Positions 11,591 to 44,469 of a stretch of DNA of 64,000 nucleotides are shown here, in pieces; position 1 is the stretch's first letter, and each line of letters opens with the position of its first letter. The notes beneath the pieces are model-generated. The model was not told where the DNA came from and ran no database searches. It saw only the letters and a program-made list of their open reading frames with translations. The DNA comes from a virus. The translations under genes were made by a program, and so were the position numbers. Location of the stretch: positions 1 through 64,000 of IMG/VR virus record IMGVR_UViG_3300009008_003296. One strand, given 5' to 3'.

Positions 11591-12547
11591 ATGAATATTT
11601 TATTAACAGGAGCAAGTGGATTTTTAGGCCAACATTTGGTTGATAAAATTGCTAACGAAATAGACAAGATCAACGAAGTTAATAACTACGAGGGAACCAA
11701 GCTTTATCAGCTTTTCGCTCCTCGTAGCTACGAATTAGACTGCCTTAAATATACAGAGCTTTATCACTATTGCCACTACAAGAACATAGATGCCATCATT
11801 CACTTGGCAGCAGAATGTGGAGGTATCGGTATTAATCAACGCAAGCCTGCAGATTTCTTTTTAAATAATGCCCAAATGAGCTTGAACGTTTTAAAGGTTT
11901 CACATGAATTAAAGCTTGAGAAGCTTGTCACCATTGGCACTGTCTGTTCTTATCCTAAACACACCCCCGTCCCTTTCAAGGAAGAGGATTTATGGAACGG
12001 TTACCCAGAAGAGACTAATGCTCCTTATGGGTTAGCTAAGAAAAACCTTTTGGTGGGGGCACAGGCTTTTTCCCAGCAATATAGTTCTAATTTTATTCAT
12101 TTGATTCCTGTTAATATGTATGGTGAACATGATCATTTTAGCTTAGAAGATTCCCATGTTATACCTGCGATGCTTCGAAAATTTCATGAGGCCAAAGAGG
12201 CTCAAGTACCCTCCGTCACCCTATGGGGAGATGGCTCAGCTTCTAGAGAGTTTTTATATGCTGGCGATTGCGCAGATGCAATTTGGAAGGCCTTCCTGCA
12301 TTACGACAGATCAGACCCTGTTAACATTGGAGCGGCTAAAGAAACTACGATAAAAGAGCTCGCAGAAACAATACAAAAGCTTGTAGGCTTTGAAGGTGAA
12401 ATAATATGGGATACAACCAAACCTAATGGTCAGCCAAGACGTTGTCTTGATACCTCCAAAGCTAAAGCTGAATTTAATTTTGAAGCGCAAACCACACTAG
12501 AAGAAGGCCTAAAAAGAACTTACAATTGGTACATAAATGAGCAATAA
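11591..12547 (+). CDS. fcl: GDP-L-fucose synthase family epimerase/reductase
   Basis: A 318-residue extended SDR enzyme: G-A-S-G-F-L-G at 7-13 binds NADP, V-C-S-Y-P near 118 is the family signature, and the catalytic pair is Tyr146 and Lys150 (Y-G-L-A-K). It would convert GDP-4-keto-6-deoxymannose to GDP-L-fucose, or the heptose equivalent. It is followed, with an 11-base overlap, by the dehydratase that makes its substrate. Length is normal for the family. Confidence 0.85.
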   Translation: MNILLTGASGFLGQHLVDKIANEIDKINEVNNYEGTKLYQLFAPRSYELDCLKYTELYHYCHYKNIDAIIHLAAECGGIGINQRKPADFFLNNAQMSLNVLKVSHELKLEKLVTIGTVCSYPKHTPVPFKEEDLWNGYPEETNAPYGLAKKNLLVGAQAFSQQYSSNFIHLIPVNMYGEHDHFSLEDSHVIPAMLRKFHEAKEAQVPSVTLWGDGSASREFLYAGDCADAIWKAFLHYDRSDPVNIGAAKETTIKELAETIQKLVGFEGEIIWDTTKPNGQPRRCLDTSKAKAEFNFEAQTTLEEGLKRTYNWYINEQ

Positions 12548-13601
12548 TATTATAGTAGTAACTGGGGTTACCGGGCAAGACGGTAGCAATATGGTTGATT
12601 TTCTTTTAAAAGAAACAGGTTGCCATATCGTAGGGTGCTTTAGGCGATCGTCTGTCCCTAATGATGAAAACGTCATTCAACATGCCGATAATCCGCGTTT
12701 TGAAAAAGTATATTTTGATTTAACTGACCCTACTTCAGTTAATCACGTAGTTAAAAAATATCAACCTGCATATTTTATCAATTTTGCAGCCCAAAGCTTT
12801 GTGGGGGCTAGCTGGGATATTCCTGTGGCCACATGGAACTGCACAGCTACTGGAGTTCTTCATGTTTTAGAGGCTATTCGAACAGAGTCTCCTCATACTA
12901 AATTTTATAACGCTGGAAGTTCAGAGGAGTTTGGGGATGTGGAGTATAGCCCGCAAGACGAAAAACACCCCTTGCGTCCTCGCTCCCCGTATGGGGCTGC
13001 CAAAGCGGCAGCTCGTCATATTGTAAAAGTATACCGAGAAAGCTATAATCTTTTTGCGGTTCAAGGTTGGCTGTTTAACCATGAAGGCACGCGCCGAGGA
13101 GAAGAATTTGTTACTCGCAAGATTACCAAGTCTGTAGCATTAATCAATAAAGCCCTTCGTGAAAAACGTACCCCTCCCGCTATACACTTAGGGAACCTTG
13201 AGTCTAAAAGAGACTGGGGTGATTCAGAAGATTTTATAAGAGCTGTCTGGCTTATGATGCAGCAAGATAATCCATGTGATTATGTAGTAGCGTCAGGAGA
13301 AACCCACTCTATCCGAGAGTTTGTTGAGGCTTCTTTTAAGTCAGCTGGTATTCCTTTTGAGGCTACAAATAATGATTTAACTACAGACGAATTAAGCGTA
13401 GCTTATACGCTTAAAGACGCCCCCGATGTTCCTTTGGTGTATGTAAATCCTAAATATTTTAGGCCTGCAGAGGTTAAATTATTGCTAGGGGACCCAAGTC
13501 GCATTGAAAAAGAATTAGGGTGGAAGCGCAATGTTTCTTTTGAAAAACTAGTTGACAAGATGACAGAACATGATATACTTACTCTTAGCAATACTCTTTG
13601 A
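12537..13601 (+). CDS. gmd: GDP-mannose 4,6-dehydratase family enzyme
   Basis: A 354-residue extended SDR enzyme with G-V-T-G-Q-D-G-S at 10-17 and the catalytic Y-x3-K at Tyr152/Lys156 in S-P-Y-G-A-A-K. F-N-H-E and R-D-W-G segments match the GMD family. It oxidises C4 and removes water from C6 of a GDP-sugar. Close relatives (DmhA, WcbK) use GDP-heptose, so with the HddA-like kinase next door the product may be a 6-deoxyheptose instead of fucose. A promoter for the next gene lies inside its 3' end. Confidence 0.88.
   Translation: MSNNIIVVTGVTGQDGSNMVDFLLKETGCHIVGCFRRSSVPNDENVIQHADNPRFEKVYFDLTDPTSVNHVVKKYQPAYFINFAAQSFVGASWDIPVATWNCTATGVLHVLEAIRTESPHTKFYNAGSSEEFGDVEYSPQDEKHPLRPRSPYGAAKAAARHIVKVYRESYNLFAVQGWLFNHEGTRRGEEFVTRKITKSVALINKALREKRTPPAIHLGNLESKRDWGDSEDFIRAVWLMMQQDNPCDYVVASGETHSIREFVEASFKSAGIPFEATNNDLTTDELSVAYTLKDAPDVPLVYVNPKYFRPAEVKLLLGDPSRIEKELGWKRNVSFEKLVDKMTEHDILTLSNTL
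13552..13579 (+). promoter_or_regulatory. Promoter for ribonucleotide reductase gene
   Basis: TTGACA (13552-13557), 16 bases, TATACT (13574-13579), inside the 3' end of the preceding dehydratase gene. Predicted start of transcription is near 13586, leaving a leader of about 40 bases before the ATG at 13626. Confidence 0.65.
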
Positions 13602-20898: not shown

Positions 20899-21992
20899 TG
20901 GAAACCGAAGACATTAAAGAAATCTTAATTGAACTAGGGTTTAAACTACGTGATCGCGGACCCTACTGGCAAACCAATGCGCTATGGCGCAATGGAGATA
21001 ACTTTACTGCGGTCCAAATATATAAAGACTCTGGGGTTTGGCGCGACTATGTTGACGACACTTCTTTTTTGCCCTTTCAGGCACTTATAGAGAAAACCTT
21101 AGGAACTAAGGATAAAAAAATACTGTCTCGCTATATTCAGCCTTCTGGCGACGTCAAATCGCCCTCTGCCTTTGAAAAACAAGATCAAAAAGTTAAAATA
21201 CAAATGGACGAAACCTATTCATTGGAGTATTTATCCAAATTATTGCCTCATTTTAAATTCTATAACGATAAAGAAATCTCAAATTTAACATTAAAGCTCT
21301 ACAAAGGTGGTTTGGCTACCGCTGGTAAGCTGAACGGCAGATTTGTTTTTCCTGTTTTTGATGAAAACGATCCTTCTCAAATCATTGGCTTCACAGGGCG
21401 CCATTTGCGGTGGAACAGCGAATCAGAGTTTCCCAAGTGGAAGCATGTAGGGCGCAAATCTAATTGGCTTTATCCTATATGCATTACTGGGCCAGCGGAT
21501 TTCTGCCCTTTTTTAGAATGCATTCAAGAACGCAGAGAAATTATCGTTGTCGAAAGCATTGGGGATAGTTTGGCATTAACAGAGAACGGCTTCCTGAACC
21601 ATCTTGTAGTAGGAGGACTTGACCTAAGCTCAAAGCAGATTTCTTTTTTGCTATCCCAAGAATTGAACCAAATCATTATTGCTACCAATAATGACGAGTC
21701 TAAAGCGGGGCTTCATGCAGCTATTAAAATTTTCGTTAAGCTTTTAAATTATTTTGACATCAATAAACTCCGCATCAATCTTCCAGTAGGAAATGACTTT
21801 GGAGATATGCAGCAAGAAGGTGTAAATTTTACAGAGGCATGGTATAAAAAACCCTTAAACAAAGAGAAGCAAATATCTAAAATATACTCTATCCTTAAAA
21901 GCAAAGAGGGAATGAATATCGTAAAAAATAAAACAGAAAGAAAGAAAAAAATAAATTTTCTTAAAAATCTACTAGAACAACCCAATGTCTAA
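20898..21992 (+). CDS. dnaG: DNA primase, DnaG/TOPRIM type
   Basis: A 364-residue primase. The TOPRIM glutamate is in V-V-E-S-I-G-D-S-L-A-L near 216, followed by A-T-N-N-D-E-S-K-A-G near 261 as the second acidic site. A canonical N-terminal zinc finger (CHC2) is missing; the first 60 residues instead have a W-R-N-G-D and W-R-D-Y-V-D pattern. The basic C-terminus may bind the helicase. It overlaps both neighbours and so belongs to one replication operon. Confidence 0.85.
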   Translation: METEDIKEILIELGFKLRDRGPYWQTNALWRNGDNFTAVQIYKDSGVWRDYVDDTSFLPFQALIEKTLGTKDKKILSRYIQPSGDVKSPSAFEKQDQKVKIQMDETYSLEYLSKLLPHFKFYNDKEISNLTLKLYKGGLATAGKLNGRFVFPVFDENDPSQIIGFTGRHLRWNSESEFPKWKHVGRKSNWLYPICITGPADFCPFLECIQERREIIVVESIGDSLALTENGFLNHLVVGGLDLSSKQISFLLSQELNQIIIATNNDESKAGLHAAIKIFVKLLNYFDINKLRINLPVGNDFGDMQQEGVNFTEAWYKKPLNKEKQISKIYSILKSKEGMNIVKNKTERKKKINFLKNLLEQPNV

Positions 21993-23034
21993 AAGAAAAC
22001 CTGTTTACCTATCAGCTAGCCGCCTCAAAACGGTTAAGATGTGTTCTTGGCTTTATTGGTGCAAATACCACCAGCGTTTACCAGACAAGTCTAACGATGG
22101 TGCTTCCAGAGGCACTGTTTGCCACCTAATTTTTGAATGTCTCGGAAAGCCCTCGAGAAGGCACTACTATGACTCTATTCTAAAAAGCAATGATCCGTTT
22201 GTTATCCCTTCTATTAAAAGGCTCATACTGTCCACTGCTCAGGCACTTAATGTAGACGACGAAGAGAACATGAGTCTTATTAAAGATATGATTGCAGCAG
22301 GGGTGCGCTACGATTTTTTAGGTAAGAAAAACGGTAAACCAGCCCAGTCCTTTTCAGAGTATGAGTTTGACATGCATGTCAACGAAGGAGCAAAAGATTA
22401 TTATATTAAAGGCTTTATAGATAAGTTGTTTATATACGATAAAAAAAGCTCTGCTTTGATCAGAGACTTTAAAACAAGCAAACAGGTCTTCAAAGGGGAA
22501 GATAAGAAAAAAAACCTGCAAGACTATATTTACAGCCTCGCTGTTAAATACCTTTTTCCAGATATTAAAAACCGTAATAGCGAGTTTGTTTTTTTAAAAT
22601 TTGATTTGGAAAAAGGCGATAAACCTGAAGGCATTATGAAGATGCGTAAAATTTCTAACAAAAAGTTGGATGAGTTTGAAATCGAATTAACACAAGCCCA
22701 AACATATTTAACAAAATTTAATTATAATTGCGCTATCGGCTCTTATGCCGCAGATAAACCAAACCCCAAAGACGGCAGCTTTGGTGGCCCTATTGCTTGT
22801 GGGAGAGCAAAATACAGAGGTCAACCCAAGAAAGACGGTAGCCCCATGTGGCACTGTACTTACAAATTTCCCTTTGATTACTATGGCCTTTTTGATGAGA
22901 ACGATAATCTGGTAAGTACAGAATTTCCAGATAACTACAGCGTACTCCTCAAAAATAAGAAAAAAAACTTTTCTATTAAAAAACTACATTACGCAGGGTG
23001 CCCTCGGTGGAATTATCTTGACATGCCCATGTAA
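21985..23034 (+). CDS. RecB/Cas4-like PD-(D/E)XK exonuclease
   Basis: A 349-residue nuclease. S-A-S-R-L-K-T-V-K near 10 is the usual RecB-family start, G-F-I-D-K-L near 143-148 gives the Asp, I-R-D-F-K-T-S near 158-164 gives Asp and Lys, and L-Q-D-Y-I-Y-S near 178 is the QxxxY motif. Two cysteines near 20 and 26 plus three near 271, 291 and 340 could hold an iron-sulfur cluster, as in Cas4 and AddB. It would process DNA ends. A strong promoter for the PHP-like gene lies in its last codons. Confidence 0.8.
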   Translation: MSKRKPVYLSASRLKTVKMCSWLYWCKYHQRLPDKSNDGASRGTVCHLIFECLGKPSRRHYYDSILKSNDPFVIPSIKRLILSTAQALNVDDEENMSLIKDMIAAGVRYDFLGKKNGKPAQSFSEYEFDMHVNEGAKDYYIKGFIDKLFIYDKKSSALIRDFKTSKQVFKGEDKKKNLQDYIYSLAVKYLFPDIKNRNSEFVFLKFDLEKGDKPEGIMKMRKISNKKLDEFEIELTQAQTYLTKFNYNCAIGSYAADKPNPKDGSFGGPIACGRAKYRGQPKKDGSPMWHCTYKFPFDYYGLFDENDNLVSTEFPDNYSVLLKNKKKNFSIKKLHYAGCPRWNYLDMPM

Positions 23035-23045
23035 TAGGCTATACT
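23018..23045 (+). promoter_or_regulatory. Promoter for PHP-like polymerase subunit gene
   Basis: TTGACA (23018-23023), 16 bases, TATACT (23040-23045), overlapping the end of the exonuclease gene. The ATG at 23054 is 9 bases past the -10 box, predicting a leaderless transcript. Its position also decides the start codon of the next gene. Confidence 0.65.
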
Positions 23046-23053
23046 CAGATAGT

Positions 23054-23797
23054 ATGGTACCTTTATTTAAAACGCATTACAGCATAGGTAAGTCTATACT
23101 AACCGTCAATGACCCCTCTCGCCTCAAAGAGGGAAGCTCGGACAGCGTAATACAAATTGCCCTTGATAACAACCTTGACAAACTAGTGCTTGTGGAAGAT
23201 AATTTTCACGGTTTTCTCGAATCGAAGAAAAGGTGCGAAGAGCATAATATACAACTTGTGTTTGGGTTGCGTTTAAATGTTTGTAACTCCCATAGCGATG
23301 ACAACAAAAAAAACCATAAAGTCATCGTGTTTGCCAAGAATGACCACGGATGCAAAAAGCTTTATAAGATACATTCATCAGCTTTTTGTGACTACAGCCA
23401 ACGGCTAACATTCAAAGACTTAAAAGAGCACTGGACAAACAATTTATTGATGGCGATTCCTTTCTATGATTCGTTTTTATATCACAATAATTTTTCTTTC
23501 AGTGAATTTATTCCTGATTTTAGTTTTTGCAAACCGCTGTTTTTCCTAGAGAACAATAAGCTTCCCTTTGACCATTTACTGCGCGCAGTTGTAGAAGAAT
23601 ATGCTAAAGCGCACACATATGAAACAGAAGAAGCGAAAACTATTTATTATAAAAATAGAAAAGATTTTGCAGCTTACCAGACTTTCAAAATTATCTGCAA
23701 TCGTAGCTTTAGCGGTCGCAAGTCAGACTTAACTCGACCGAATTTGGACCATTGCGGCAGCCAAGAGTTTTGTATGGAGAGCTTTTTAGAAAAATGA
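23054..23797 (+). CDS. PHP-like N-terminal domain of DNA polymerase III alpha, as a separate gene
   Basis: A 247-residue protein starting at ATG 23054, just after a promoter. F-K-T-H-Y-S-I-G near 5-12 and L-V-F-G-L-R-L-N-V near 64-72 align with the PHP domain that starts bacterial DnaE (HxHS and the GxE segment), and A-K-N-D-H-G-C-K-K-L near 88 is the family's 'LAKNxxGYxNL' region. Metal ligands are degenerate (V-E-D-N-F-H-G in place of TDHG). The polymerase core is a separate gene at 26157, so DnaE is split. Role: presumably a structural or exonuclease-contact subunit. Confidence 0.7.
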   Translation: MVPLFKTHYSIGKSILTVNDPSRLKEGSSDSVIQIALDNNLDKLVLVEDNFHGFLESKKRCEEHNIQLVFGLRLNVCNSHSDDNKKNHKVIVFAKNDHGCKKLYKIHSSAFCDYSQRLTFKDLKEHWTNNLLMAIPFYDSFLYHNNFSFSEFIPDFSFCKPLFFLENNKLPFDHLLRAVVEEYAKAHTYETEEAKTIYYKNRKDFAAYQTFKIICNRSFSGRKSDLTRPNLDHCGSQEFCMESFLEK

Positions 23798-24261
23798 AAA
23801 AATTTATAATCAGTGACAACGCTCTTGAACGAGTAAAAGACCGAGCAGCAAAGCTTCCTTTGCTAAATAATTCTATCCGTCAAGGTATGGGCAGCTTGGT
23901 GGCATACATAGGCGAAGAGGTTGCTAAAAATGTTCTCAACGGGGAAATTAAAGATACCTATGATTATGATATTGTTTACCAAGGTACGAAGGTCGATGTC
24001 AAAACCAAAGAGCGTACGGTTGCGCCTAAAGCTTACTACGAATGTTCGGTCGCAGACTTCAACACAAGACAAGACTGTGATGAATATGCTTTTGTAAGCG
24101 TTCTCCACACTCTTAAAGAAGCGTGGTATCTCGGAAAGATTAGTAAGCGTGACTTTTACAATCAAGCAGTTTTCCACCGTAAAGGAGAGGTTGATCCTGC
24201 TAACAATTTTACCTTTAAAGCAGACTGTTATAACATTCCTATAAATTTATTAAATTCATAA
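23794..24261 (+). CDS. PD-(D/E)XK nuclease-like protein
   Basis: A 155-residue protein; ATG at 23794 overlaps the previous stop by 4 bases. G-E-E-V-A-K near 40, Y-D-Y-D-I-V (Asp59) and V-D-V-K-T-K (Asp68, Lys70) form a restriction-endonuclease-fold active site. It lies in the insert between the two polymerase genes. Function beyond nuclease is unknown. Confidence 0.6.
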   Translation: MKKFIISDNALERVKDRAAKLPLLNNSIRQGMGSLVAYIGEEVAKNVLNGEIKDTYDYDIVYQGTKVDVKTKERTVAPKAYYECSVADFNTRQDCDEYAFVSVLHTLKEAWYLGKISKRDFYNQAVFHRKGEVDPANNFTFKADCYNIPINLLNS

Positions 24262-24329
24262 TGAAAAAGAAACAATACGATATTCTTCCGTCTCCCTGCG
24301 AAGAGGATTATATGGTATGGGTATGGTAA
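24261..24329 (+). CDS. Possible 22-residue peptide
   Basis: Starts at the last base of the previous stop codon (TAATG) and ends 1 base before the next ATG. Tight coupling is the only support. Ends with a W-V-W tail. Confidence 0.3.
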   Translation: MKKKQYDILPSPCEEDYMVWVW

Positions 24330-24330
24330 G

Positions 24331-24501
24331 ATGGACGACACCCCTCAACAACGATATAACAAGACCCCCAAAGGGAAAAAAGCTCGGCTTCGAGCTCAAA
24401 AAAAGTACGATATAAAAGACAAAGAAAAACGCCGTGCACAAAAAAGAGAATACATGCGCCGCAAAAGAGCAGAGAACCCTAGTTACTGTAAATGGAAATA
24501 G
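24331..24501 (+). CDS. Small highly basic protein, 56 residues
   Basis: Begins M-D-D-T-P-Q-Q-R-Y and is then dominated by Lys, Arg and Gln, suggesting nucleic-acid binding. It ends 2 bases before the tRNA gene. Confidence 0.45.
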   Translation: MDDTPQQRYNKTPKGKKARLRAQKKYDIKDKEKRRAQKREYMRRKRAENPSYCKWK

Positions 24502-24503
24502 TC

Positions 24504-24580
24504 GCCACCTTAGCTCAGTCCGGCAGAGCATCCGATTTGTAATCGGAAGCGCCTTGGTTCGAATCCAAGAGGTGGCTCCA
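24504..24580 (+). tRNA. tRNA-Thr (anticodon UGU)
   Basis: A 77-base cloverleaf. The acceptor stem GCCACCT pairs with AGGTGGC (7 of 7). The D arm is GCTC/GAGC. The anticodon stem TCCGA/TCGGA carries loop TTTGTAA, so the anticodon is TGT. The T arm is CTTGG-TTCGAAT-CCAAG, and CCA is encoded at 24578-24580. It reads the ACA codon and lies just before an HNH endonuclease gene, in the insert that separates the two polymerase genes. Confidence 0.95.
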
Positions 24581-24585
24581 TCTAT

Positions 24586-25101
24586 ATGAAAGACCATACA
24601 CCCACATTAAAGAAAAAATGCAAAAATTGCGGCACAGCAATAACAGTGCGGCGTTCTGACCACAACAGAGGACAGGCTCTTTTCTGTAGCCGTGCTTGTA
24701 GCGGCTACCACAATAATACGAAAAGAAAGAGCTTAGACCTAACTTGCACCATATGCGGGGGCTCATTTAAATCTAAATGCTCCCACGCTAAATACTGTAG
24801 CACCTCTTGCCGCAGACACATGTATATCTCCCGCGCAAAAAAGGATAGAGATAGAGGGAAGTATCGCTACCACCTTAGCAAAAAAATAAGAGACAAGTAC
24901 GGCACACTCTCTTGTTTTATTTGTGGCTGGCAAGAAGCCACGTGCGATGTGCACCATATTGTGCCTCGCTCAAAAGGAGGGACAGACGAAGATAGTAACA
25001 TGACCGTCGTATGCCCCAACCACCACCGCATGATTCACCAAGGCAAAGTAAATGTGAATAATATTAAAACCCTAGCCCATCAATTTAAATTAAAAAAATG
25101 A
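24586..25101 (+). CDS. HNH endonuclease with zinc-finger array
   Basis: A 171-residue protein. Two treble-clef-like CxxC...CxxxC units lie at about 12-38 and 54-75. The HNH nuclease core follows: C-F-I-C-G at 110-114, D-V-H-H-I-V-P at 121-127, an Asn near 138 and C-P-N-H-H at 143-147. It starts 5 bases after the tRNA. HNH proteins of this kind are typical free-standing homing endonucleases in phages, which fits its place between two halves of the polymerase. Confidence 0.85.
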   Translation: MKDHTPTLKKKCKNCGTAITVRRSDHNRGQALFCSRACSGYHNNTKRKSLDLTCTICGGSFKSKCSHAKYCSTSCRRHMYISRAKKDRDRGKYRYHLSKKIRDKYGTLSCFICGWQEATCDVHHIVPRSKGGTDEDSNMTVVCPNHHRMIHQGKVNVNNIKTLAHQFKLKK

Positions 25102-25523
25102 AAGACAAACTTTTTTTATCACCAAAGATACAAGTTAAAACTGTGGATGGTTGCCGTGGGGTTTTCTGCGTAGAAGATATTAAGAAAGGGGAGGGCGTGG
25201 AAGAAAGCGGGCTTCTCCTTCTGGAAAATAACAAATGGGAGGACTGTGACAAAGAGCTTTTAAAGTGCGCTTTCCCATGGCCAGAGTTGCGCTCAGATTG
25301 GAAGGATTTTTGCGATGAACATGGAGGCATCTTGCCTTTTCATGCTACCCGTCCAGTTTTAGTGCTTGGGTACGGTATGTTTTATCGGCGCTCCCCCTCA
25401 CCTAACATTAACCATAAGATAGAAAAAAAATTATTTACTTGCAATTTTGTAGCAACATGTGATATAAAAGAAGGGGAAGAATTGTTTTTACCTAAACCCA
25501 AAACCGAAGAAAACCATGAATGA
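25098..25523 (+). CDS. SET-domain-like protein
   Basis: A 141-residue protein. G-C-R-G-V-F-C-V-E-D-I-K-K-G-E near 18-32 matches the SET-N start, L-G-Y-G-M-F-Y-x-x-S-x-x-P-N near 90-103 corresponds to the SAM-binding/catalytic NHSxxPN region (N-H replaced by R-R), and D-I-K-E-G-E-E-L at 122-129 is the SET-C motif. SET proteins methylate lysines; a phage protein target or a non-catalytic role is possible. It overlaps both neighbours. Confidence 0.7.
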   Translation: MKDKLFLSPKIQVKTVDGCRGVFCVEDIKKGEGVEESGLLLLENNKWEDCDKELLKCAFPWPELRSDWKDFCDEHGGILPFHATRPVLVLGYGMFYRRSPSPNINHKIEKKLFTCNFVATCDIKEGEELFLPKPKTEENHE

Positions 25524-26157
25524 TAATCTGTTACGATTTAAAAAAAACCAAAAGTATTTGTGTTTTGATTTTGAGACGTGCCATCTAAATCTTTTGAACT
25601 CAGACAATAAGCCATGGCAATTAGGGTATGGCATTTTCCAAGGGAAGAAGCTCATAAAAAGTTTTGATCGATTAATTAAGTGGCCTGTTTTAAACATTAG
25701 CCCCGAAGCAGCCAAGATTTGCCGTTTTAATCGTCGCCATTATGAAAAAAATGCTACAGATGCAGCAGCCATCCTTCAGGAATTTGAAAAATATCTTTAC
25801 GACCCTTCTTATTTGGTTCTTGGCCATAATTTATTAGGGTTTGATGTTTATATCCACAATATTTATCGTAAATTACTCAAACTCAAGTCAGACTTCTCCT
25901 ACGTAGACAGAATTATCGATACAAACTGCATCGCGAAAGCCGCCAAAGAAAAAATTAAAAAAAGCAAAAGCGAACCATTGATTAATTGGCAATATAAGCT
26001 GAATGAGTTTCGCAAAAGAGGGCTAAAAACTAACCAAAAACAATTACTTAAAGACTATGATATTAAATTTGACGAAAGTAAGCTCCATGACGCTCGTTAC
26101 GATATCGGAATGACATTTAAAATTTTTAACAAACTCATATGGGAGGTCGAAATATAA
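25516..26157 (+). CDS. DnaQ-like 3'-5' exonuclease (proofreading)
   Basis: A 213-residue DEDDh exonuclease: F-D-F-E-T at 17-21 (ExoI), G-H-N-L-L-G-F-D near 104-111 (ExoII), and H-D-A-R-Y-D near 192-197 (ExoIII with the general-base His). It stops on the start codon of the polymerase gene (TAATG), so it most likely proofreads for it, as the epsilon subunit does for polymerase III. Confidence 0.85.
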   Translation: MNDNLLRFKKNQKYLCFDFETCHLNLLNSDNKPWQLGYGIFQGKKLIKSFDRLIKWPVLNISPEAAKICRFNRRHYEKNATDAAAILQEFEKYLYDPSYLVLGHNLLGFDVYIHNIYRKLLKLKSDFSYVDRIIDTNCIAKAAKEKIKKSKSEPLINWQYKLNEFRKRGLKTNQKQLLKDYDIKFDESKLHDARYDIGMTFKIFNKLIWEVEI

Positions 26158-28727
26158 TGTTTGCAGATAAGTTTACCAAATACGATAAGTGTGCCCCAGC
26201 TGGGGTTCTTCTCCCTAAGATTAAAATCGATAAAAAGTTTTACAAAAAACTTGGTCTCGACGAAGAAGTCGATAATCTAAGATTCCTAAAGAAGCTTTGT
26301 TGGGAGAGTATTAAAGAGATGGGCATCAATAAATACCCCAACAAAGATCGATATTACGACAGAGCAGGAGAAGAGCTGAAAATATTAGACGAGCTCGGAT
26401 TTATTGATTATATTTTGCTTAATTGGGATATTTTAAACTATTGTCACGAACATGATATACCGACTGGTCCCGGCCGCGGATCAGCCGCAGGTTCCCTAAT
26501 ACTTTATTTGCTCAAGGTTACAAAAGTAGATCCGATTAAGTACAATCTTTTCTTCGAGAGATTTGTTTCTAAAAGCCGTGCTCGCAAAATAGAGAAAGAC
26601 GGTATAACTTATCTTGACGGATCTTTATTGGCTGATGTTGACAATGATATCGCTTATGATCGACGAAGCGAGGTGATTGAATACATCAAACGTAAACACC
26701 CTTCTCGTACATGCCGAATTTTAAATTTGGTTAGCTTAAGCGGTAAGCTTTGCATCAAGGAGACCGGCAAAATTGTTGGTCTTTACACAGAGCAAGAGGT
26801 TAACGAGTTAAGCGATTTGATTCCTGTTAAATTTGGTAAGGTTTCCCCTTTGTCTGAGGCGCGCCAAGAAAGTGAGCTTTTCGACGAGTGGTGCGAGGAA
26901 AACATCAAAGTTTACGAGATAGCTCGCAAACTAGAAGGCCTTATTAAGAACACAGGTATTCATGCGTCAGGTATTGCAATTTCCCATGACCGTTTAACTG
27001 ATATTTGCCCGCTCCAAAAAACTAAAGAAGGAGAGCTGACCTCTTGTTATGACATGAATTGGATTTCTGAGCTTACAGTTAAGTTTGACATATTAGGCTT
27101 GAAAACTTTAACCGTTCTAAAAGAGGCGTCACGCCTTGCTCAAATAAACTTAGAGAGCATCGACCTGAGCCAAAAAAAGCTCTACAAGCATCTACAAAAC
27201 CTTGAATGCCCACAAGGGCTTTTTCAAATTGAGGCGGATACCAATTTTGGTGTTTGCAAAAAAATTAAACCTCGCAACCTAGAGGAAGTTTCGGCTGTGA
27301 TCGCTATAGCGAGACCGGGCGCTCTCGAATTCAAAGATCAGTACGCCAACTATATTCGCACAGGTACCCCAGATCTAGTTCATCCTGAATTTGCTGATAT
27401 TCTAGACTCTACCGGAGGTATTCCTCTTTATCAAGAGCAACTCATGCAAATGGCGGTGAAAGTAGGGTTTACGTTGGATGAAGCTGAGCAATTGCGCCGC
27501 ATTGTTGGAAAAAAGAAAGTGGACCAGATGCCCGAATGGCAGTCCAAGATTCACCAGAAGGTAGAAGAAAACCGTTTAACGAACGCATGGACAGGCCTTC
27601 GCGGAACAGAGATCGCTGATGTCCTATGGCAGGTAGCAGAAGATAGCGCTAATTATTCTTTTAACAAATCTCATTCTATTAGTTATGCCATCCTTTCCGC
27701 ATGGACAACTTATCTAAAGTTCAATTATCCTCAATATTTTTATATTGCTTTGCTTAAAATGGCGAAACACGAGGCTGATCCTTTTGACCAAGTCAACAGA
27801 ATAGCTCGAGAGTTAAACTACTTTAACATGAAGCTCCTACCTCCCGATTTGGCAAAATCAGAAATGGACTTTACAGTAGAAGGCAAAGATATTCGTTATG
27901 GGCTTAATTGTATTAAAGGTGTTAGCGAAAAAAGCTTACAGTCCATTGTTGACTTTAGAGCTTCGGAGATTTCTAATAAGTTTGATGTTTTTCTAGCCGC
28001 TAAAGACGCCAAAATTAACATAGGGGTGTTGTCATCGCTAATACAGGCCGGAGCACTTAGCTCTTTCGGCAATAGCCGCAGCCGCATGGCGCTTGAAGCT
28101 CAAGCATTTAATATTTTAACTGATAGAGAAAAAAGAAATTTCATAGCTCTTGGACCTAAATATAATTATGATGTTTTAAACATATTGGGCACAGAGGTCC
28201 TCAAAAACAAAGGCGTAGGGGACGACAACAAACCAATCATGAAAGAGAGCCGCACCCAAACCTTTCTTAAAAAATACAGACCCTACAAACACATATACGA
28301 TAAGAATAAAAGTTTTGAAAAATTTGCTAATTGGTATTTTGAAAACCAACTATTAGGCTATTCTTACACTCATACGCTCCGAGATGTCTTCAAGAACGAA
28401 ACCGGCAATTTAATGAATTGTTACGAAGTGTGTTCTACAGATACCAACGAAGGTGTAAAATTTGTAGGAGTAGTAAAAGATTGTAGTCGGCGTTTGGTTA
28501 GCAGAAACAACAACCGTTACATTCGTCTTACAATGGCAGATGAACTTGGGCGTATTGATTGTATGTTTTTTGACCCCAAGCTGGAAAAATATTTAGAAGG
28601 TAAAGGGGCACCCGAAAAAGACAATATTGTCACTATTGTAGGAAAGAAATCAGAAGATATTGTTTTTGTAGACGATATGAATGTTTTAGATGGACGTATT
28701 TACATGAAACTGTCAGATATAAAATGA
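26157..28727 (+). CDS. dnaE: DNA polymerase III alpha-type polymerase without PHP domain
   Basis: An 856-residue C-family polymerase. I chose ATG 26157 because GGAGG at 26142-26146 lies 10 bases upstream, a rare strong Shine-Dalgarno site here. P-G-R-G-S-A-A-G-S-L near 104-113 and A-D-V-D-N-D-I near 159-165 (catalytic aspartates, replacing PDFDIDF) identify the palm. A helix-hairpin-helix region is near 580 and an OB-fold lies after about 750. The N-terminal PHP region is missing and encoded at 23054. It is the replicative polymerase of this phage. Confidence 0.9.
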   Translation: MFADKFTKYDKCAPAGVLLPKIKIDKKFYKKLGLDEEVDNLRFLKKLCWESIKEMGINKYPNKDRYYDRAGEELKILDELGFIDYILLNWDILNYCHEHDIPTGPGRGSAAGSLILYLLKVTKVDPIKYNLFFERFVSKSRARKIEKDGITYLDGSLLADVDNDIAYDRRSEVIEYIKRKHPSRTCRILNLVSLSGKLCIKETGKIVGLYTEQEVNELSDLIPVKFGKVSPLSEARQESELFDEWCEENIKVYEIARKLEGLIKNTGIHASGIAISHDRLTDICPLQKTKEGELTSCYDMNWISELTVKFDILGLKTLTVLKEASRLAQINLESIDLSQKKLYKHLQNLECPQGLFQIEADTNFGVCKKIKPRNLEEVSAVIAIARPGALEFKDQYANYIRTGTPDLVHPEFADILDSTGGIPLYQEQLMQMAVKVGFTLDEAEQLRRIVGKKKVDQMPEWQSKIHQKVEENRLTNAWTGLRGTEIADVLWQVAEDSANYSFNKSHSISYAILSAWTTYLKFNYPQYFYIALLKMAKHEADPFDQVNRIARELNYFNMKLLPPDLAKSEMDFTVEGKDIRYGLNCIKGVSEKSLQSIVDFRASEISNKFDVFLAAKDAKINIGVLSSLIQAGALSSFGNSRSRMALEAQAFNILTDREKRNFIALGPKYNYDVLNILGTEVLKNKGVGDDNKPIMKESRTQTFLKKYRPYKHIYDKNKSFEKFANWYFENQLLGYSYTHTLRDVFKNETGNLMNCYEVCSTDTNEGVKFVGVVKDCSRRLVSRNNNRYIRLTMADELGRIDCMFFDPKLEKYLEGKGAPEKDNIVTIVGKKSEDIVFVDDMNVLDGRIYMKLSDIK

Positions 28728-31129
28728 TTACAGAAGATATTAATTTTACCCCTCGATCACAAAAGTTGCTTCAGGCAACAAAGCGTATTGCGCTAGCTTT
28801 TCGGCATGATGAGATTTTGTTGCCCCATTTATTCGCTGCTTTTTTTGACCTTAAACAAGCTAAGTCTCTTAGTATTGCAATTGATCTTGGGCTTGATTTA
28901 GATCAATTACGACATGTTTTGTATAATGAAATATTATCTACGCTTCCCAATCATAAGGTTGAACCTGTTGAGATAAAGCTCTCTCCCCTTATAGTATCTA
29001 TTTTAAAACAGTCTACCGAAATAGCATCTGAATTTGGCCATCCTTGGGTAAGCGTGGATCACATTTTTTTATCTATTTTAGATAATTTCGAGAAATGGCC
29101 CTCTAAGCTTCATGCTTTATTTTCTTTTAACACTACAGAGCTTTTTACGGAGATCGTTACTTATCTTTCAGACGCTCAGCTTCCTACAGCCCCCTCTTCT
29201 ACAGGGGCGCCATCGCCCTTTACAGAAGGGAAATCAGACTTTAAAGTCTTAGAAAAATATGCTAATAATTTAACCGAAAAAACACTTCAAGGTAAAACTG
29301 ATCCCGTTTTCGGCAGAGAGGAAGAAACCGCAAAGGTGGAAGATATTTTAAATCGCCGTAAAAAAAATAGCGTTATCTTGTTGGGAGAGGCAGGTGTTGG
29401 AAAAACTTCTATTGTTGAGGGTTTAGTTCAGCGCATTGTGAGCGGTGAAGCACCTTTGTTTTTGCAAAATAAAATTATTTTTAGTTTAGATTTAAATACT
29501 ATTGTAGCTGGAACTAAATACCGAGGAGAGTTTGAGGATCGTTTGAATAAAATTATAGAAGAGGCCAAGCATTCAAATGTGATTTTATTTATCGACGAGA
29601 TTCATACTCTTATTGGGGCCGGAGACGCTGAAGGGTCTTTAGATGCTGCCAATATCCTTAAACCTGCTCTGTCTAGTGGAGACATTACAGTAATCGGGGC
29701 CACTACTTACACCGAATATCGTAAAAAACTTTTCAAAGACAAAGCCCTGCACCGTCGCTTTGACCAAGTCATAGTCGAAGAACCAACCAAAGAGGAAACT
29801 TTAAAGATTTTAGACCAAAAAAAGAAAATTTACGAATCTTTTCACTATGTTTCAATCACTTCTGAGATATTGCAGGATATAGTTAACTATGCGGAGGAGT
29901 TTTTACCACAGAGCCAGTTCCCCGACAAGGCTATTGATTTACTTGATCTTATATGCAGCCATGTTAAGATAAAAAAAATTAAAAAACCACGATCCCTACG
30001 AGACCTTGAGGCGAAGTTTATTTCCAATCTGACAGAAAACAAAAATTCTGAAGAAGAACAGAATATGCTTTTTGAAAAGATTAAGTCTGATGCCGCCAAA
30101 TGGAGCGACCAACTATCTCATAAAAGGTACAAGGTTTCAAAACGCGATCTTTTTGAAATACTTTCCCGCAAAACAGGTATTCCAGCTCACGATTTTGGAC
30201 AATCTGTGTCTCAAAAATATATCGGTCTTGAAAATCAGCTTAAAAAACTGGTAGTTGGACAGCCAGAAGCTATTAGCTCTATTTCACGTTGTCTTTTACG
30301 ACATAAAAGCGGGCTTCGAGACACCGCGCGCCCCATTGGTAACCTAATGTTTCTTGGCCCTACCGGCGTTGGCAAAACCTATGTTGCAAAATGTCTGGCC
30401 AAATATTTTTTTAAAAATAAAAATAATTTTATTCACCTTGACATGTCTGAGTTTTCTGAAAGTGCTAGTGTGTCTAAGCTGATAGGCTCTAGTCCCGGGT
30501 ATGTGGGCTTTGACCAAGGGGGCGTTTTAGTAGAAAAAATTTCTCAGAACCCAAATTCAGTGGTTCTTTTTGATGAGATAGAAAAAGCTCACCCCAAAGT
30601 GCACCAAATTTTACTTCAAATCCTCGAGGAGGGGCGCCTTCACGATTCACAAGGAAGAGACGCCAACTTTCGAAATAGCATCATTATTATTACTGGTAAT
30701 ATTGGCTCTCAGAAACTTATGCAAAAAGAATCTCTTGGTTTTGCAGATTCTACCGCGCAAAGCCGCGTAAGTGACGCTCGCCAAGAGCTTAAAAAAGTTT
30801 TGCCTCTTGAACTTATCAATCGATTTGATGATATTATCTTTTTCAAAGACCTGTCTGATTCCAGCCTGAAGGCTATTGTTCGCCACGAACTTCAACATCT
30901 TGTGGAGAACGCCACCAAAAGTGGCATTAATTTAGACTTTGATTCGAATATTGAGGATTTTATTGTAAATGATATTGGGGATTCGTCTTTTGGCGCTCGC
31001 CTCATCAAGAGAGTAGTTCAAAATAAGATTACCGACAAACTTTCTTTAAAATTTATTAAAAACCCTCACATAAAAAACTATTCGGTCCGCTATAATAAAA
31101 AGCAGGACAAAATTGATGTAAAATTTTGA
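28724..31129 (+). CDS. ClpA/ClpC-type AAA+ unfoldase
   Basis: An 801-residue Hsp100 protein. Clp N-domain repeats occupy about 1-150. The first AAA module has G-E-A-G-V-G-K-T near 221 and L-F-I-D-E-I-H-T-L near 287. The second has G-P-T-G-V-G-K-T near 545 and V-L-F-D-E-I-E-K-A-H near 613. S-L-G-F near 670 sits where ClpC carries its ClpP-binding VGF loop, so it may dock to host ClpP. It could redirect host proteolysis or remodel replication proteins. It overlaps the polymerase by 4 bases. Confidence 0.88.
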   Translation: MITEDINFTPRSQKLLQATKRIALAFRHDEILLPHLFAAFFDLKQAKSLSIAIDLGLDLDQLRHVLYNEILSTLPNHKVEPVEIKLSPLIVSILKQSTEIASEFGHPWVSVDHIFLSILDNFEKWPSKLHALFSFNTTELFTEIVTYLSDAQLPTAPSSTGAPSPFTEGKSDFKVLEKYANNLTEKTLQGKTDPVFGREEETAKVEDILNRRKKNSVILLGEAGVGKTSIVEGLVQRIVSGEAPLFLQNKIIFSLDLNTIVAGTKYRGEFEDRLNKIIEEAKHSNVILFIDEIHTLIGAGDAEGSLDAANILKPALSSGDITVIGATTYTEYRKKLFKDKALHRRFDQVIVEEPTKEETLKILDQKKKIYESFHYVSITSEILQDIVNYAEEFLPQSQFPDKAIDLLDLICSHVKIKKIKKPRSLRDLEAKFISNLTENKNSEEEQNMLFEKIKSDAAKWSDQLSHKRYKVSKRDLFEILSRKTGIPAHDFGQSVSQKYIGLENQLKKLVVGQPEAISSISRCLLRHKSGLRDTARPIGNLMFLGPTGVGKTYVAKCLAKYFFKNKNNFIHLDMSEFSESASVSKLIGSSPGYVGFDQGGVLVEKISQNPNSVVLFDEIEKAHPKVHQILLQILEEGRLHDSQGRDANFRNSIIIITGNIGSQKLMQKESLGFADSTAQSRVSDARQELKKVLPLELINRFDDIIFFKDLSDSSLKAIVRHELQHLVENATKSGINLDFDSNIEDFIVNDIGDSSFGARLIKRVVQNKITDKLSLKFIKNPHIKNYSVRYNKKQDKIDVKF

Positions 31130-31354: not shown

Positions 31355-31603
31355 ATGTCTGCAGGAACAAGTGGTAATTCACCTTCTGGACCCGAGGCCA
31401 CAGGTCCGGTTGATAGTCCAGACGCAACAGGCCCAGATTCAGGTTCTTGTGTAGGAGATGGCAGTGGCTCTACTGGTCCGGCTCCTGACGCAACAGGCCC
31501 AGATTCAAGCGGTGCAGCCGGAGAAACTAGTGGCCCTATCATAAGTGACGATAGAGATGCGGCAGCTGCGGCACCACGCCCCCTCCCTAGTCATAGACAT
31601 TAA
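31355..31603 (+). CDS. Gly/Pro/Ser-rich low-complexity protein with ATGP repeats
   Basis: An 82-residue protein made mostly of Gly, Ser, Asp and Pro, with recurring D-A-T-G-P units. The same motif recurs at 32096. It begins 2 bases after the previous stop. Possibly a flexible virion or surface protein; not a strict Gly-X-Y collagen repeat. Confidence 0.5.
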   Translation: MSAGTSGNSPSGPEATGPVDSPDATGPDSGSCVGDGSGSTGPAPDATGPDSSGAAGETSGPIISDDRDAAAAAPRPLPSHRH

Positions 31604-32095: not shown

Positions 32096-32494
32096 ATGAG
32101 TTCGAACTTAAGTACTGAAGCGACCGGACCCGCATCTTCTAGCGGGAACGTAGGAACAGGCACAGTCGGGGAACTGAAGACTGATTTTGCAAACTTGCTA
32201 ATCAATCGAGTGACCTTGGGCGAGTGTCTAAATGTTATTCGTGATGCGTGCGTAGCTCGCGCAGGTGAGCTTGTGGATAGCGCCGATGAACCCACCCTAG
32301 AAAACATCAAAAAAGATGTAGCTGCTTTCCATGAAGCTGGCTCTGCTGGTGAAGCTGGCTCTTCCGTGGGAGATGGTAGTGATTACCAGAGCCCTGATGC
32401 TACTGGCCCTAGTGATGCTACTGGCCCTAGTGATGCTACTGGCCCTGCAGGAGACGGATCTTCTGGCAATGTAGGTGGTCCCACCGGCCCTTAA
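32096..32494 (+). CDS. Low-complexity protein with S-D-A-T-G-P tandem repeats
   Basis: A 132-residue protein. A helical-looking middle (about 25-80) is flanked by Gly/Ser/Pro-rich ends, with three S-D-A-T-G-P copies near 100-117. It shares the ATGP motif with the protein at 31355. It has its own promoter and is followed by a strong terminator, so it is a separate transcription unit. Function unknown. Confidence 0.55.
   Translation: MSSNLSTEATGPASSSGNVGTGTVGELKTDFANLLINRVTLGECLNVIRDACVARAGELVDSADEPTLENIKKDVAAFHEAGSAGEAGSSVGDGSDYQSPDATGPSDATGPSDATGPAGDGSSGNVGGPTGP
32396..32446 (+). repeat. 18-base tandem repeat (three copies, last one partial)
   Basis: Unit GATGCTACTGGCCCTAGT, identical in all copies, inside the coding region at 32096. 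It encodes the D-A-T-G-P-S repeat. Exact identity at DNA level points to recent slippage expansion. Confidence 0.85.
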
Positions 32495-34549: not shown

Positions 34550-36463
34550 ATGGCTGAAAGAAAAAAGAAAATCCTGATTCACAGCAACCACTGCAAGGCG
34601 TTTACAGGGTTTGGCAAACACAAGAAAAATCTTTTAAAGTATTTGCACCGTACTGGCAAATATGAAATAGTAGAGGCTTCTAATGCGAAGCATAAAGACC
34701 AAGTCTCCAATATGCCTTGGAAAGCTATTGGCACCCTTCCTTCTAACCAAAAACTTTTAATGGAGATTGGCAAAGACCCGAATAGGCAGCGCAACGCAGG
34801 TTACGGGCACGAATTAATTAATGAAATAATTGAGGAAGAGAAACCTGATGTTTATTTAGGCATAGAGGATATTTGGGCCTTTAGTGGATTTACTTCGCGT
34901 CCATGGTGGAACAAAATGCATTGCATGATTCATACCACTTTAGACAGCGTCCCTCTTTTGCCCGAATCTATCCAAGCTGCACCTAAAATAAAACATTATT
35001 TTGTATGGGCGTCATTTGCCCAGCGCGAACTCGAGAGGGTAGGGCATAAGCACATCAAAACAGTGAGAGGCTCTCTTGAGACTAATCATTTTTTTAAAAT
35101 AGACGACAAGGAGCGCGAGCGCCTAAGGGAGGATCATGGGCTTTCTAAAAATTTTGTGATTGGCTTTGTGTTCAGAAACCAGCTTCGAAAAAGCGTTCCC
35201 AATCTCCTAGAAGGCTTTAAAACATTTAAAGCAGCCCATCCAGAATCTAGTCCTAAACTTTTACTACACACCCATTGGGCCGAAGGATGGGACATACCTA
35301 CCTTAATCAAAGAAAAGCAATTAGATAAAGACGATATTGTTACCACTTATATATGCGGCAAATGTCATCAGTATTTTGTGCGCAGCCATAACGGCCAAGC
35401 ACAAGACTGTGCTGGATGCAACACAAAAGGTTCCCTGCATACAACCAATATTAAAGTCGGTGTTTCAGAAAAACAGTTGAATGAGGTCTATAATTTAATG
35501 GACGTTTATTGCCACCCTTTTACTAGCGGAGGGCAAGAAATCCCTATCCAAGAAGCGAAGTTATCAGAGTTGATTACTTTGGTCACTAATTACTCTTGCG
35601 GAGAAGACTGCTGTACCCCTGATAGCGGGGGATTTCCTTTGGAGTGGGCCGAATATCGGGAGCCCGGCACCCAATTTATTAAAGCTTCCACTTCTGCTCG
35701 TTCTATTTTTGAGCAACTTGTTCGAGTTTATAAAATGAGCCCCGCAGAGCGCGCAGCCAAAGGGAAAGAGGCTCGACAATTTGTAATTGATAATTACTCT
35801 ATTGAGGTAGTAGGTAAATTTTTTGAAGACTTGTTCGACGAGTTGCCCCTGATAGACTGGAGCGAAATTGACTTGCAAGCCGTGAAGCTTGAAAAAAGAA
35901 ACCCAGACTATCAGCCTCCGGAGGAACCCAACAATTCAAAATGGCTTTTAGGCCTTTATAAAAACATGCTGCGCATGGATATAGACGAAACAGATAATGG
36001 TTACAAGTATTGGATGAACGAATTTGTTAAAGGTAAAGCTAGAGCCGACATTTTAAATTTCTTTGTCCAAACAGCTAAAAAAGAAAACGCCGATCTTTTT
36101 AAAAAATCTTTAAAAGAAGAGATAGATTCTAGTCGCCCCAATAAAAGAATTGCCTATGTGATGCCGGACCACGAGGAAGATGTCTTTATGAGCTTAAGTG
36201 TTATTAAGTCCCTCAAACAACTTTACCCGGATCATGACATATATTTCTTCACTCAAAGAAAACATTTTCCGTTAGTGGACGAAAGCACTGATGTCTATAA
36301 GCTGTGTGAGTTTTATAACGAAATGGATGATTGTTTATATTTTGAAGGAAAGGCAGATGAAAAGGGTTTGTTTGATATGGCTTTTCTGCCTTGGCTTGAA
36401 ACTAAACGAGCTTTAAATTATACCCGCCATGGTCGAGACAAGCTTCAATTTGACTTAGCATGA
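34550..36463 (+). CDS. GT4-like glycosyltransferase with zinc-ribbon insert, fused to N-half of a GT9-like domain
   Basis: A 637-residue protein. Residues 1-440 are GT-B (GT4-like), with G-F-G-K-H-K-K-N-L near 21 and P-F-T-S-G-G-Q-E-I-P near 321-330 as donor-site region. A C-G-K-C...C-A-G-C zinc ribbon (about 269-290) is inserted just before it. From about 530 (R-I-A-Y-V-M-P) the sequence resembles the first half of a GT9/heptosyltransferase, which stops abruptly and seems to continue in the next gene. Linked by ATGA overlap. Confidence 0.7.
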   Translation: MAERKKKILIHSNHCKAFTGFGKHKKNLLKYLHRTGKYEIVEASNAKHKDQVSNMPWKAIGTLPSNQKLLMEIGKDPNRQRNAGYGHELINEIIEEEKPDVYLGIEDIWAFSGFTSRPWWNKMHCMIHTTLDSVPLLPESIQAAPKIKHYFVWASFAQRELERVGHKHIKTVRGSLETNHFFKIDDKERERLREDHGLSKNFVIGFVFRNQLRKSVPNLLEGFKTFKAAHPESSPKLLLHTHWAEGWDIPTLIKEKQLDKDDIVTTYICGKCHQYFVRSHNGQAQDCAGCNTKGSLHTTNIKVGVSEKQLNEVYNLMDVYCHPFTSGGQEIPIQEAKLSELITLVTNYSCGEDCCTPDSGGFPLEWAEYREPGTQFIKASTSARSIFEQLVRVYKMSPAERAAKGKEARQFVIDNYSIEVVGKFFEDLFDELPLIDWSEIDLQAVKLEKRNPDYQPPEEPNNSKWLLGLYKNMLRMDIDETDNGYKYWMNEFVKGKARADILNFFVQTAKKENADLFKKSLKEEIDSSRPNKRIAYVMPDHEEDVFMSLSVIKSLKQLYPDHDIYFFTQRKHFPLVDESTDVYKLCEFYNEMDDCLYFEGKADEKGLFDMAFLPWLETKRALNYTRHGRDKLQFDLA

Positions 36464-43559: not shown

Positions 43560-44469
43560 AAAGCCAATATCAATCAACCACTATTTTCCCGAAGGCGAAG
43601 ATTGGCGAACCTATCCTGCGATCAAGGTAACCACTGCCGACGCGTTCCATTATTGCGCTATGCCCTTGGAATTCGCTATGTACCGTGGTATCGAAAAGGT
43701 GTGGAGCTGCGAGCTTGGCGACAACTCTTGGGCGACCTTCGATGACACTGAGATGTACAACGCCGTTTTAACTGATCGTAACGGGAATATAATAATGCAA
43801 AAAAAATGGAACCCTCTAGAGGATGGAGATTTTTTTTATCAGGCTCTTTATCTTTATTGCATGCGTCTCACCAGTGAGGGTAAAAAACCTAAAGGTATCG
43901 CGATAGGAACCCATGATGGAGCATTTGGAGAATGGGCCCCTGTAGTACAAGAGGATTTAACTGATGCTTGCTTGGTTGAGGCGTCGCAACCTCAATTTGC
44001 GAACCTTGTTCGCAATTATCAAAGGTACCCCAACGTTAAATTGGTCAACCAGTTGATTACCACAGAAGGGCAAGATATAGAATTTTTCGAAGGAGGAAAT
44101 GGTTACACTAATTCTGTTGTAGAAAGAGTCATAAGAGACTGGGAAACGCAGGAAATCAAAAGCTCTATAAGATCCTCTTGTTCAATTAATGATTTAATTG
44201 GCAATTACATATCCAGCGGAGAGCGACTAGATTGGCTTCATTTAGATGTTGAAGGATATGATGCGGATTTGCTAAGAGCTCTCAAGCAACCGCTCCCGCC
44301 TTTTATTATTTTTGAAAATCACCCTTCTCACCACAAGGAAGAACTGGAGTATAATGAACAACAAAAAAAACGGATTCAAACTTATCTGAGGGATAGCGGG
44401 CACGACATAGTATCTTCAGGTGTTTCTTGCTTAGCAACCCTCCCCTATGAAGTTCAAAACATTAAATGA
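43546..44469 (+). CDS. FkbM-family methyltransferase
   Basis: A 307-residue protein. I-G-T-H-D-G-A-F-G-E near 122-131 is the SAM-binding loop, L-V-E-A-S-Q-P near 144 the acidic site, and L-H-L-D-V-E-G-Y-D near 243-251 the FkbM signature. The first 110 residues are an extra domain. It would methylate a sugar hydroxyl in the glycan assembled by its neighbours. Confidence 0.8.
   Translation: MNGTKKPISINHYFPEGEDWRTYPAIKVTTADAFHYCAMPLEFAMYRGIEKVWSCELGDNSWATFDDTEMYNAVLTDRNGNIIMQKKWNPLEDGDFFYQALYLYCMRLTSEGKKPKGIAIGTHDGAFGEWAPVVQEDLTDACLVEASQPQFANLVRNYQRYPNVKLVNQLITTEGQDIEFFEGGNGYTNSVVERVIRDWETQEIKSSIRSSCSINDLIGNYISSGERLDWLHLDVEGYDADLLRALKQPLPPFIIFENHPSHHKEELEYNEQQKKRIQTYLRDSGHDIVSSGVSCLATLPYEVQNIK

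Follow-up and report, generated by a model that had tools for sequence, protein, structure and literature searches.

How a phage that keeps the PHP domain and the polymerase core of a DnaE-type enzyme in separate genes might build its replicase is the question raised by a locus in a viral DNA of 64,000 nucleotides (IMG/VR record IMGVR_UViG_3300009008_003296, positions 1 to 64,000; hereafter, this whole stretch is called the window). A preliminary description of the window, made from its letters alone, had proposed that DnaE was split at the border between PHP domain and core, perhaps by an HNH element, and that the halves reassemble as proteins. We find that the window's DnaE comes in two parts that meet at the PHP/core border, and that the pair, taken as a whole, covers DnaE. 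We further consider it highly probable that the locus encodes a C-family replicase as a three-gene unit, in which a non-catalytic PHP subunit, a DEDDh exonuclease and the core would come together in one assembly.

The PHP protein and the core as adjacent parts of DnaE

The protein encoded at 23054-23797 matched Pfam PHP (3.2e-9), phrog_405 (DNA polymerase; positions 63-188 of 1190) and the NCBIfam DnaE profile PRK05673 (positions 13-129, 3.6e-7), and a phmmer search of PDB sequences with this protein returned no match at E up to 1. The product of 26157-28727 matched PRK05673 at positions 276-1047 (2.2e-146) as well as the Pfam families DNA_pol3_alpha (9.3e-59), finger (7.6e-33) and HHH_6 (1.7e-19); no PHP match was found in it with Pfam and NCBIfam profiles, so that it lacks the same-chain PHP of the DnaE type. 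Profile comparison with E. coli DnaE placed the two proteins on adjacent, non-overlapping parts, the first covering residues 12-240 and the second 274 onward.

Comparison of AlphaFold2 (AF2) models with solved structures gave the same division. The PHP model (mean predicted local distance difference test score, pLDDT, 93.6) superimposed on residues 7-257 of Taq DnaE with Z 23.2 and 2.4 Å over 229 residues, and on E. coli DnaE 6-246 with Z 23.1, while the core model (mean pLDDT 89.4) fell on Taq DnaE 286-1122 (Z 36.2, 6.5 Å, 713 residues) and E. coli DnaE 269-910 (Z 32.5, 4.7 Å, 603 residues). Against the PHP model, Z did not exceed about 13 for PHP enzymes outside the C family, compared with 23 for DnaE, and we rule out that the PHP protein is such an enzyme. 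C-terminal to the HhH region, core residues ~750-847 resembled OB-fold chains (Z about 12), with a Pfam OB match at 773-839 (5.8e-5) that is under its cut-off. The catalytic aspartates are residues 160, 162 and 311 of the window core, and this triad is kept in 155 of 155 sequences. Since the PHP protein and the core map side by side on the same solved chains, the two genes are parts of one DnaE, and the core is a C-family DNA polymerase of the DnaE type whose PHP is in a separate gene. Both halves of the preliminary assignment, a protein aligning with the DnaE PHP region and a core without PHP, are thereby borne out, the former by Pfam, PHROG and NCBIfam profiles and by fold comparison, the latter by Pfam and PRK05673. 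The locus is laid out as follows.

23018..23045, + strand: sigma70-like promoter site, TTGACA-16-TATACT, 11/12 consensus matches
23054..23797, + strand: free-standing DnaE PHP-domain protein, metal site apparently lost; ATG 23054, 247 aa; assigned by Pfam, PHROG, NCBIfam and AF2
23794..24261, + strand: small protein, no family assigned; its ATG overlaps the PHP stop as ATGA
24331..24501, + strand: orf56, a 56-codon frame; no family match at E up to 0.1
24504..24580, + strand: tRNA-Thr (tgt), also in near relatives L002, L003, L004 and L024/L029 (one contig)
24581..25089, + strand: HNH endonuclease insert (frame 24586-25101); Pfam HNH 3.7e-8; directly 3' of the tRNA
25098..25523, + strand: SET-domain protein; Pfam SET 4.7e-8
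25516..26157, + strand: DEDDh 3'-5' exonuclease (DnaQ/PolC-exo-like); its stop overlaps the core start as TAATG
26157..28727, + strand: DnaE polymerase core (palm, fingers, HhH, OB-like) without PHP; alternative ATG 26139

The PHP gene also has a longer alternative frame from TTG 23018. Among the genes that had been reported between PHP and core, the tRNA-Thr, HNH, SET-like and DnaQ-like genes were recovered by tRNA calling, Pfam and PHROG. The PD-(D/E)XK-like label given to one of them was not confirmed for the frame at 23794-24261, which has no Pfam match at E up to 1 (translated from 23785); the clear PD-(D/E)XK gene (PF12705, 3.3e-13) sits upstream of PHP, at 21985-23034. Of 156 distinct loci, 14 have a relative of the 23794-24261 protein in the PHP-to-core interval.

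The metal site of PHP domains is described by the ligand motif HHDHEH[C/H]DH in PMC12926913. Across 161 phage sequences the expected residue is present in none at seven of the nine positions, and at the other two the Asp is found in 8 sequences and the Glu in 1; in the unsplit DnaE rows (n=11) each of the nine ligands is kept in 9 to 11. These ligand columns are our own placing on the alignment, and for ligands 1, 2 and 4 there is no phage residue opposite the column, so that the loss there depends on the alignment. Profile alignment pairs Lys6 of the phage PHP with His12 of E. coli. The PHP protein thus appears to be non-catalytic, with its metal site gone, rather than an active PHP nuclease.

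The exonuclease matched Pfam RNase_T (1.1e-7) and phrog_192, "DNA polymerase exonuclease subunit" (2.4e-15). Its DEDDh residues Asp18, Glu20, Asp110, His191 and Asp196 are kept in 163, 163, 165, 165 and 164 of 165 sequences, respectively, and the best solved match of its profile is the PolC-type chain 2p1j from T. maritima (2.7e-10), with DnaQ also near. In the 16 proteins compared, the exonuclease ends about 17 residues past the last catalytic Asp (residue 196 of 213 in the window).

According to PMC3666897, loss of PHP metal ligands is linked to a separate proofreader, a link which the lost ligands and separate exonuclease seen here would fit. The same source describes the presence of the PHP domain as strictly conserved in replicative bacterial polymerases, and the PHP of E. 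coli as inactive, yet modulating stability and activity through its integrity.

Spread of the three-gene order and the genes in its gaps

Seven of eight IMG/VR scans, run with single proteins and with alignments and keeping 80 loci each, were used together with one scan of genome_contigs; all clade counts refer to this sample of at least 185 distinct cores and are lower bounds. A separate PHP gene lies upstream of the core in 171 of the 185, one core is fused to PHP, and 13 are undecidable, their contigs starting at most 733 bases upstream of the core. All 171 of these loci have an exonuclease gene in the interval from PHP to core, under a later criterion than that of an earlier listing in which 9 of 156 loci had none there, and the order PHP, exonuclease, core is constant in the sample. 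The gap between PHP and core is at most 720 bases, leaving room for the exonuclease only, in 87 of the 171; exonuclease and core are at most 30 bases apart in 133, and PHP and exonuclease in 112.

A quick core tree was built from 61 rows: the window, 42 split representatives thinned from 154 cores, 16 unsplit DnaE, Rhodococcus phage Trina, and the fused member, L354. The sampled members, including L354, form one clade with a Shimodaira-Hasegawa-like approximate likelihood ratio (SH-aLRT) support of 100, well separated from the bacterial and phage DnaE in the tree; we do not trust the joining of Trina with Bacillus phage Curly, both of which sit on long branches. DnaE proteins outside the clade that were examined by profile have PHP joined to the core or, where the core is broken, to its first piece, Trina being the exception. 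In INPHARED, 1333 records match the core, all below 60% identity (60 listed at 24.8-34.1%), and PHP has a single weak match (E 2e-3).

As the split is clade-wide in the sample, we rule out that it is a recent event. A decayed pseudogene is likewise ruled out for PHP by its conserved frame in the decidable loci. In one contig (L017:9000-9330, also L028) a frameshift breaks the core near codon 383, perhaps a sequencing error because the near-identical L002 is whole. Near the polymerase cluster of another contig (L007:16485-16895), ARAGORN called a tmRNA with its tag peptide.

The distribution of the HNH gene bears on how the split arose. A free-standing HNH homing endonuclease might have split, at the PHP/core border, a DnaE gene that was once whole in the window phage, as the preliminary description suggested; the HNH gene is located between the two genes, and in Bacillus phage vB_BauM_KLEB27-3 an HNH gene lies between two DnaE pieces. 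However, four near relatives (L002, L003, L004 and L024) whose alignment with the window extends through the tRNA-Thr to its last bases (24579-24580) are all split and all without HNH. Beyond the tRNA, the alignment picks up again at 25090 in L002 and L024, with 13 and 12 intervening bases, and at 25230 in L003 and L004, where the sequence is more diverged. These are four of the four near relatives that cover the site, L030, L031 and L032 stopping before it. Relatives of the window's HNH gene, a count that concerns this gene and not all endonuclease families, were found in 1 of 156 distinct loci, namely the window itself; L005 and L010, whose cores are 100% identical to that of the window, also carry it and collapse into the window locus. 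The gene adjoins the tRNA and not a DnaE end. An endonuclease present where the gene is split and absent where it is whole is therefore not what we see, since the HNH gene is absent from split relatives. With 171 of 172 decidable relatives split, these HNH-free loci lead us to reject this HNH gene as the cause of the split, and we leave a cut of this kind in the window phage only the slightest probability. From these alignments the HNH gene is best taken as a late passenger in the window phage and not as the cause of the split.

Other cargo is found in the same interval. SET genes, whose product has the fold of protein lysine methyltransferases, recur in the PHP-to-core interval in 19 of the 156 distinct loci, and the window's overlaps the start of the exonuclease gene. 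A Pfam scan covering 55 of 79 representative interval frames matched IMPDH, cupin, LAGLIDADG and other families, including LAGLIDADG_3 in 2 of the 55; IMP dehydrogenase-like cargo accounts for 6 of the 55, lying between PHP and exonuclease (e.g., L011:6202-7188). L024 has another frame, of 255 codons, ahead of its tRNA. The tRNA, HNH, SET and small genes between PHP and exonuclease are best read as passengers of a gap that tolerates insertions, not as makers of the split.

That the PHP half has a promoter of its own, as had been proposed, is supported in the form of a promoter-like site, an 11/12 match whose first hexamer overlaps the PD-(D/E)XK gene upstream at its end. It is a consensus match and not a mapped start, with almost no leader before ATG 23054. 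A TTGACA/TATAAT-like site with at least 10 of 12 matches was found for PHP in 102 of 149 loci, no more than 100 bases ahead of the gene, compared with 3 of 155 for the exonuclease and 12 of 149 for the core; random places gave 25 of 780 and shuffled sequences 35 of 745. A similar site precedes PHP in most of nine relatives inspected. The window region overall has 45 promoter-like sites against 29.2 expected, a moderate excess. Given the enrichment of the site before PHP, a transcription unit probably begins with PHP and would go on to include the exonuclease and the core.

The fused relative and the proposed assembly of three proteins

L354 encodes, in one frame of 1364 codons, PHP (residues 12-254), exonuclease (270-464) and core (493-1357), with Pfam matches in the order PHP, RNase_T, pol3. 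The protein recurs at 100% identity in four IMG/VR contigs with four metagenome numbers, which makes an assembly fault of one sample unlikely. Like a Rosetta-stone fusion, this chain ties the three functions together. An unsplit relative, which the preliminary description had proposed to look for, therefore exists in these four contigs, but its exonuclease sits inside the chain, and its state may be either ancestral or derived.

The trees speak on both sides of this point. The quick tree nests L354 with split members L213 and L355 (SH-aLRT 96), as a derived fusion would be, and this placement was not upheld with a smaller set and a more careful search. In a constrained-tree test of 38 rows (22 split, 15 unsplit and L354, with Trina and Curly excluded), a tree with L354 outside all split members was not rejected by the approximately unbiased (AU) test (p-AU 0.855), its likelihood being 21.3 higher than that of the free quick tree. 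In the careful tree, with 22 split and 7 unsplit rows plus L354 (30 in all), L354 falls near the base, without firm placement. An ancestor with one PHP-exonuclease-polymerase chain, whose fission gave three genes while L354 kept the old state, is consistent with the existence of L354 and with these last two trees. The nesting in the quick tree, the single fused sequence type against 171 split ones, and the lack of any match to the exonuclease profile in the unsplit DnaE frames listed all count against it, and we regard it as a possibility to be held tentatively. The order of events may have been single chain first or three genes first.

How the three proteins would work together can be proposed from the folds. 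The PHP protein is expected to fold alone and most likely packs on the core at the place that PHP occupies inside DnaE, where it would be a structural part and perhaps a dock helping to hold the exonuclease. The sequences suggest that PHP and core are likely to reassemble as proteins, as had been proposed, and the three separate proteins would then give an alpha-epsilon-like assembly, similar to a Pol III core, without protein splicing. Evolutionary distances of PHP and core correlate with r 0.841, with a permutation maximum of 0.295 (61 representatives).

Alternatively, the PHP protein could be a stand-alone regulator or a remnant and not a polymerase subunit, as its separate gene and its metal site, which is not intact, might suggest. 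This is improbable given that PHP accompanies the core, either as an upstream gene or by fusion, in all 172 decidable distinct loci, is conserved with nine invariant residues over 113 aligned sequences, is joined to exonuclease and core in L354, and resembles the PHP of DnaE more closely than that of PHP enzymes outside the C family.

Several points weigh against a tight three-protein assembly. We infer the PHP/exonuclease/core complex from indirect evidence. Distances also correlate between exonuclease and core (r 0.834) and between PHP and exonuclease (0.725), and such correlation arises in any co-inherited genes. More than 300 bases separate exonuclease and core in 19 of 171 loci, and PHP and exonuclease in 52 of 171, so tight coupling is not universal. 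Finally, E. coli epsilon binds PHP and the clamp via its C-terminal tail; no tail of the epsilon type was found in the 16 clade exonucleases compared, and their docking must therefore differ from that of E. coli.

A covalent joining of the halves by a split intein, by contrast with the non-covalent assembly proposed above, has a probability close to nil. Split-intein-like halves do occur in the clade, in L181, L190, L201 and L216, but these lie inside the core, at YSFNK/SHS. The PHP proteins end close to the domain and the cores begin at the palm, and inspection by eye showed no intein-like extension there, nor did a general Pfam scan show any intein at the PHP/core border, no dedicated intein scan of the ends having been made. 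The four broken cores (L181:7372-11250, L190:7712-11608, L201:7372-10576 and L216:5998-8982) carry intein-like halves of about 93 and 38 residues, with weak Hint and Intein_splicing matches in L181 that are below their cut-offs. Between the core pieces, L181 and L190 have 0.9 kb with an endonuclease-like frame of ~300 codons, L201 has 232 bases and L216 has 21 bases. The frame in L181 and L190 is one that we take, by eye only, to be NUMOD/Vsr-like. The core of L202, near L190, is unbroken. From their sequences, some clade phages seem to make their polymerase from PHP, exonuclease and two core pieces.

The role of PHP in bacterial replicases is not entirely understood. A PHP that is separated, inactivated and yet retained makes it possible to add or omit PHP, and so to measure its structural, docking and fidelity roles directly. 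Phage PHP genes may also be annotated as unknown while being replicase subunits.

Neighbouring genes and comparison with known systems

The surroundings of the three genes were tallied over the 42 loci with both PHP and core genes from the first two scans, duplicates being kept. Upstream of PHP, among 36 loci with room, PD-(D/E)XK genes were found in 33, primase in 32 and DnaB in 31. A gene for a ClpA/B-like double AAA+ protein lies directly after the window core, with a 4-base overlap (28724-31129), and 30 of the 35 loci with enough sequence have a ClpA/B-like gene on the downstream side of the core. A search of the window's record for a Gp23 capsid gene gave no match, and its control gave none either. 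Further away, the window encodes a 1534-residue protein with glycosyltransferase-like parts (44466-49070), another glycosyltransferase-like gene (34550-36463), nucleotide-sugar epimerase-like genes (11591-13601), and short frames with many repeated ATGP/DATGP collagen-like units (31355-31603 and 32096-32494).

Among the close known phage systems is that of Trina, annotated with two DnaE genes (gp101 and gp102) which profiles divide at the PHP/core border into a PHP protein of 303 aa and a core of 956 aa, with a 4-base overlap. Unlike the clade, Trina has no gene between the two, and gp101 keeps an HLHTQYS motif; its core is a long branch outside the clade, the exact place of which we do not trust. 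The C-family polymerase is also in two genes in Bacillus phage KLEB27-3, Rossellomorea phage phiT1, Mycobacterium phage Fowlmouth and Corynebacterium phage P1201, but there the break is within the core and PHP is on the first piece. Division of a phage DnaE inside its core (GenBank) and, in one cultured phage, Trina, at the PHP/core border is thus already known. PMC10580990 describes OM43 phages, MEP401 and MEP402, whose DNA polymerase is encoded by two genes separated by a small frame of unknown function, a likeness to the window locus by description only. Fractured genes with split inteins were reportedly described by Dassa in 2009, and they resemble the broken cores of the four relatives above, in which the breaks are not at the PHP/core border and which do not include the window. 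The literature searched, with most subscription papers outside its reach, held no report of the clade-wide PHP-exonuclease-core layout or of a stand-alone phage PHP; relative to that literature, the clade-wide layout, as three genes or one chain, is new.

Compared with bacterial DnaE and its separate DnaQ, the clade has the PHP, palm/fingers, HhH and OB-like parts in the same order and, as in E. coli, an inactive PHP together with a separate DEDDh proofreader. It differs in that PHP is a separate gene, the exonuclease gene is between PHP and core, the exonuclease is without the epsilon tail, and the core ends soon after the OB fold. An exonuclease between PHP and polymerase parts is shared with PolC, whose type also supplies the best solved match of the exonuclease profile. 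According to PMC3919608, PolC has its exonuclease as an insertion within PHP and carries its OB domain at the N-terminus; neither holds for the PHP and core models, in which the exonuclease follows a complete 247-residue PHP without insert and the OB-like part is C-terminal. The same text has the exonuclease attached to the N-terminus of PHP in some Bacteroidetes DnaE1. L354 resembles these in holding DnaE and exonuclease in one chain, and differs in having the exonuclease between PHP and palm. We tentatively suggest, as a possibility short of an even chance, that PHP-exonuclease-polymerase is a third proofreading layout of the C family, born in phages and ancestral to the clade, existing either as one chain, as in L354, or as three subunits in which PHP would be a separate scaffold carrying the proofreader.

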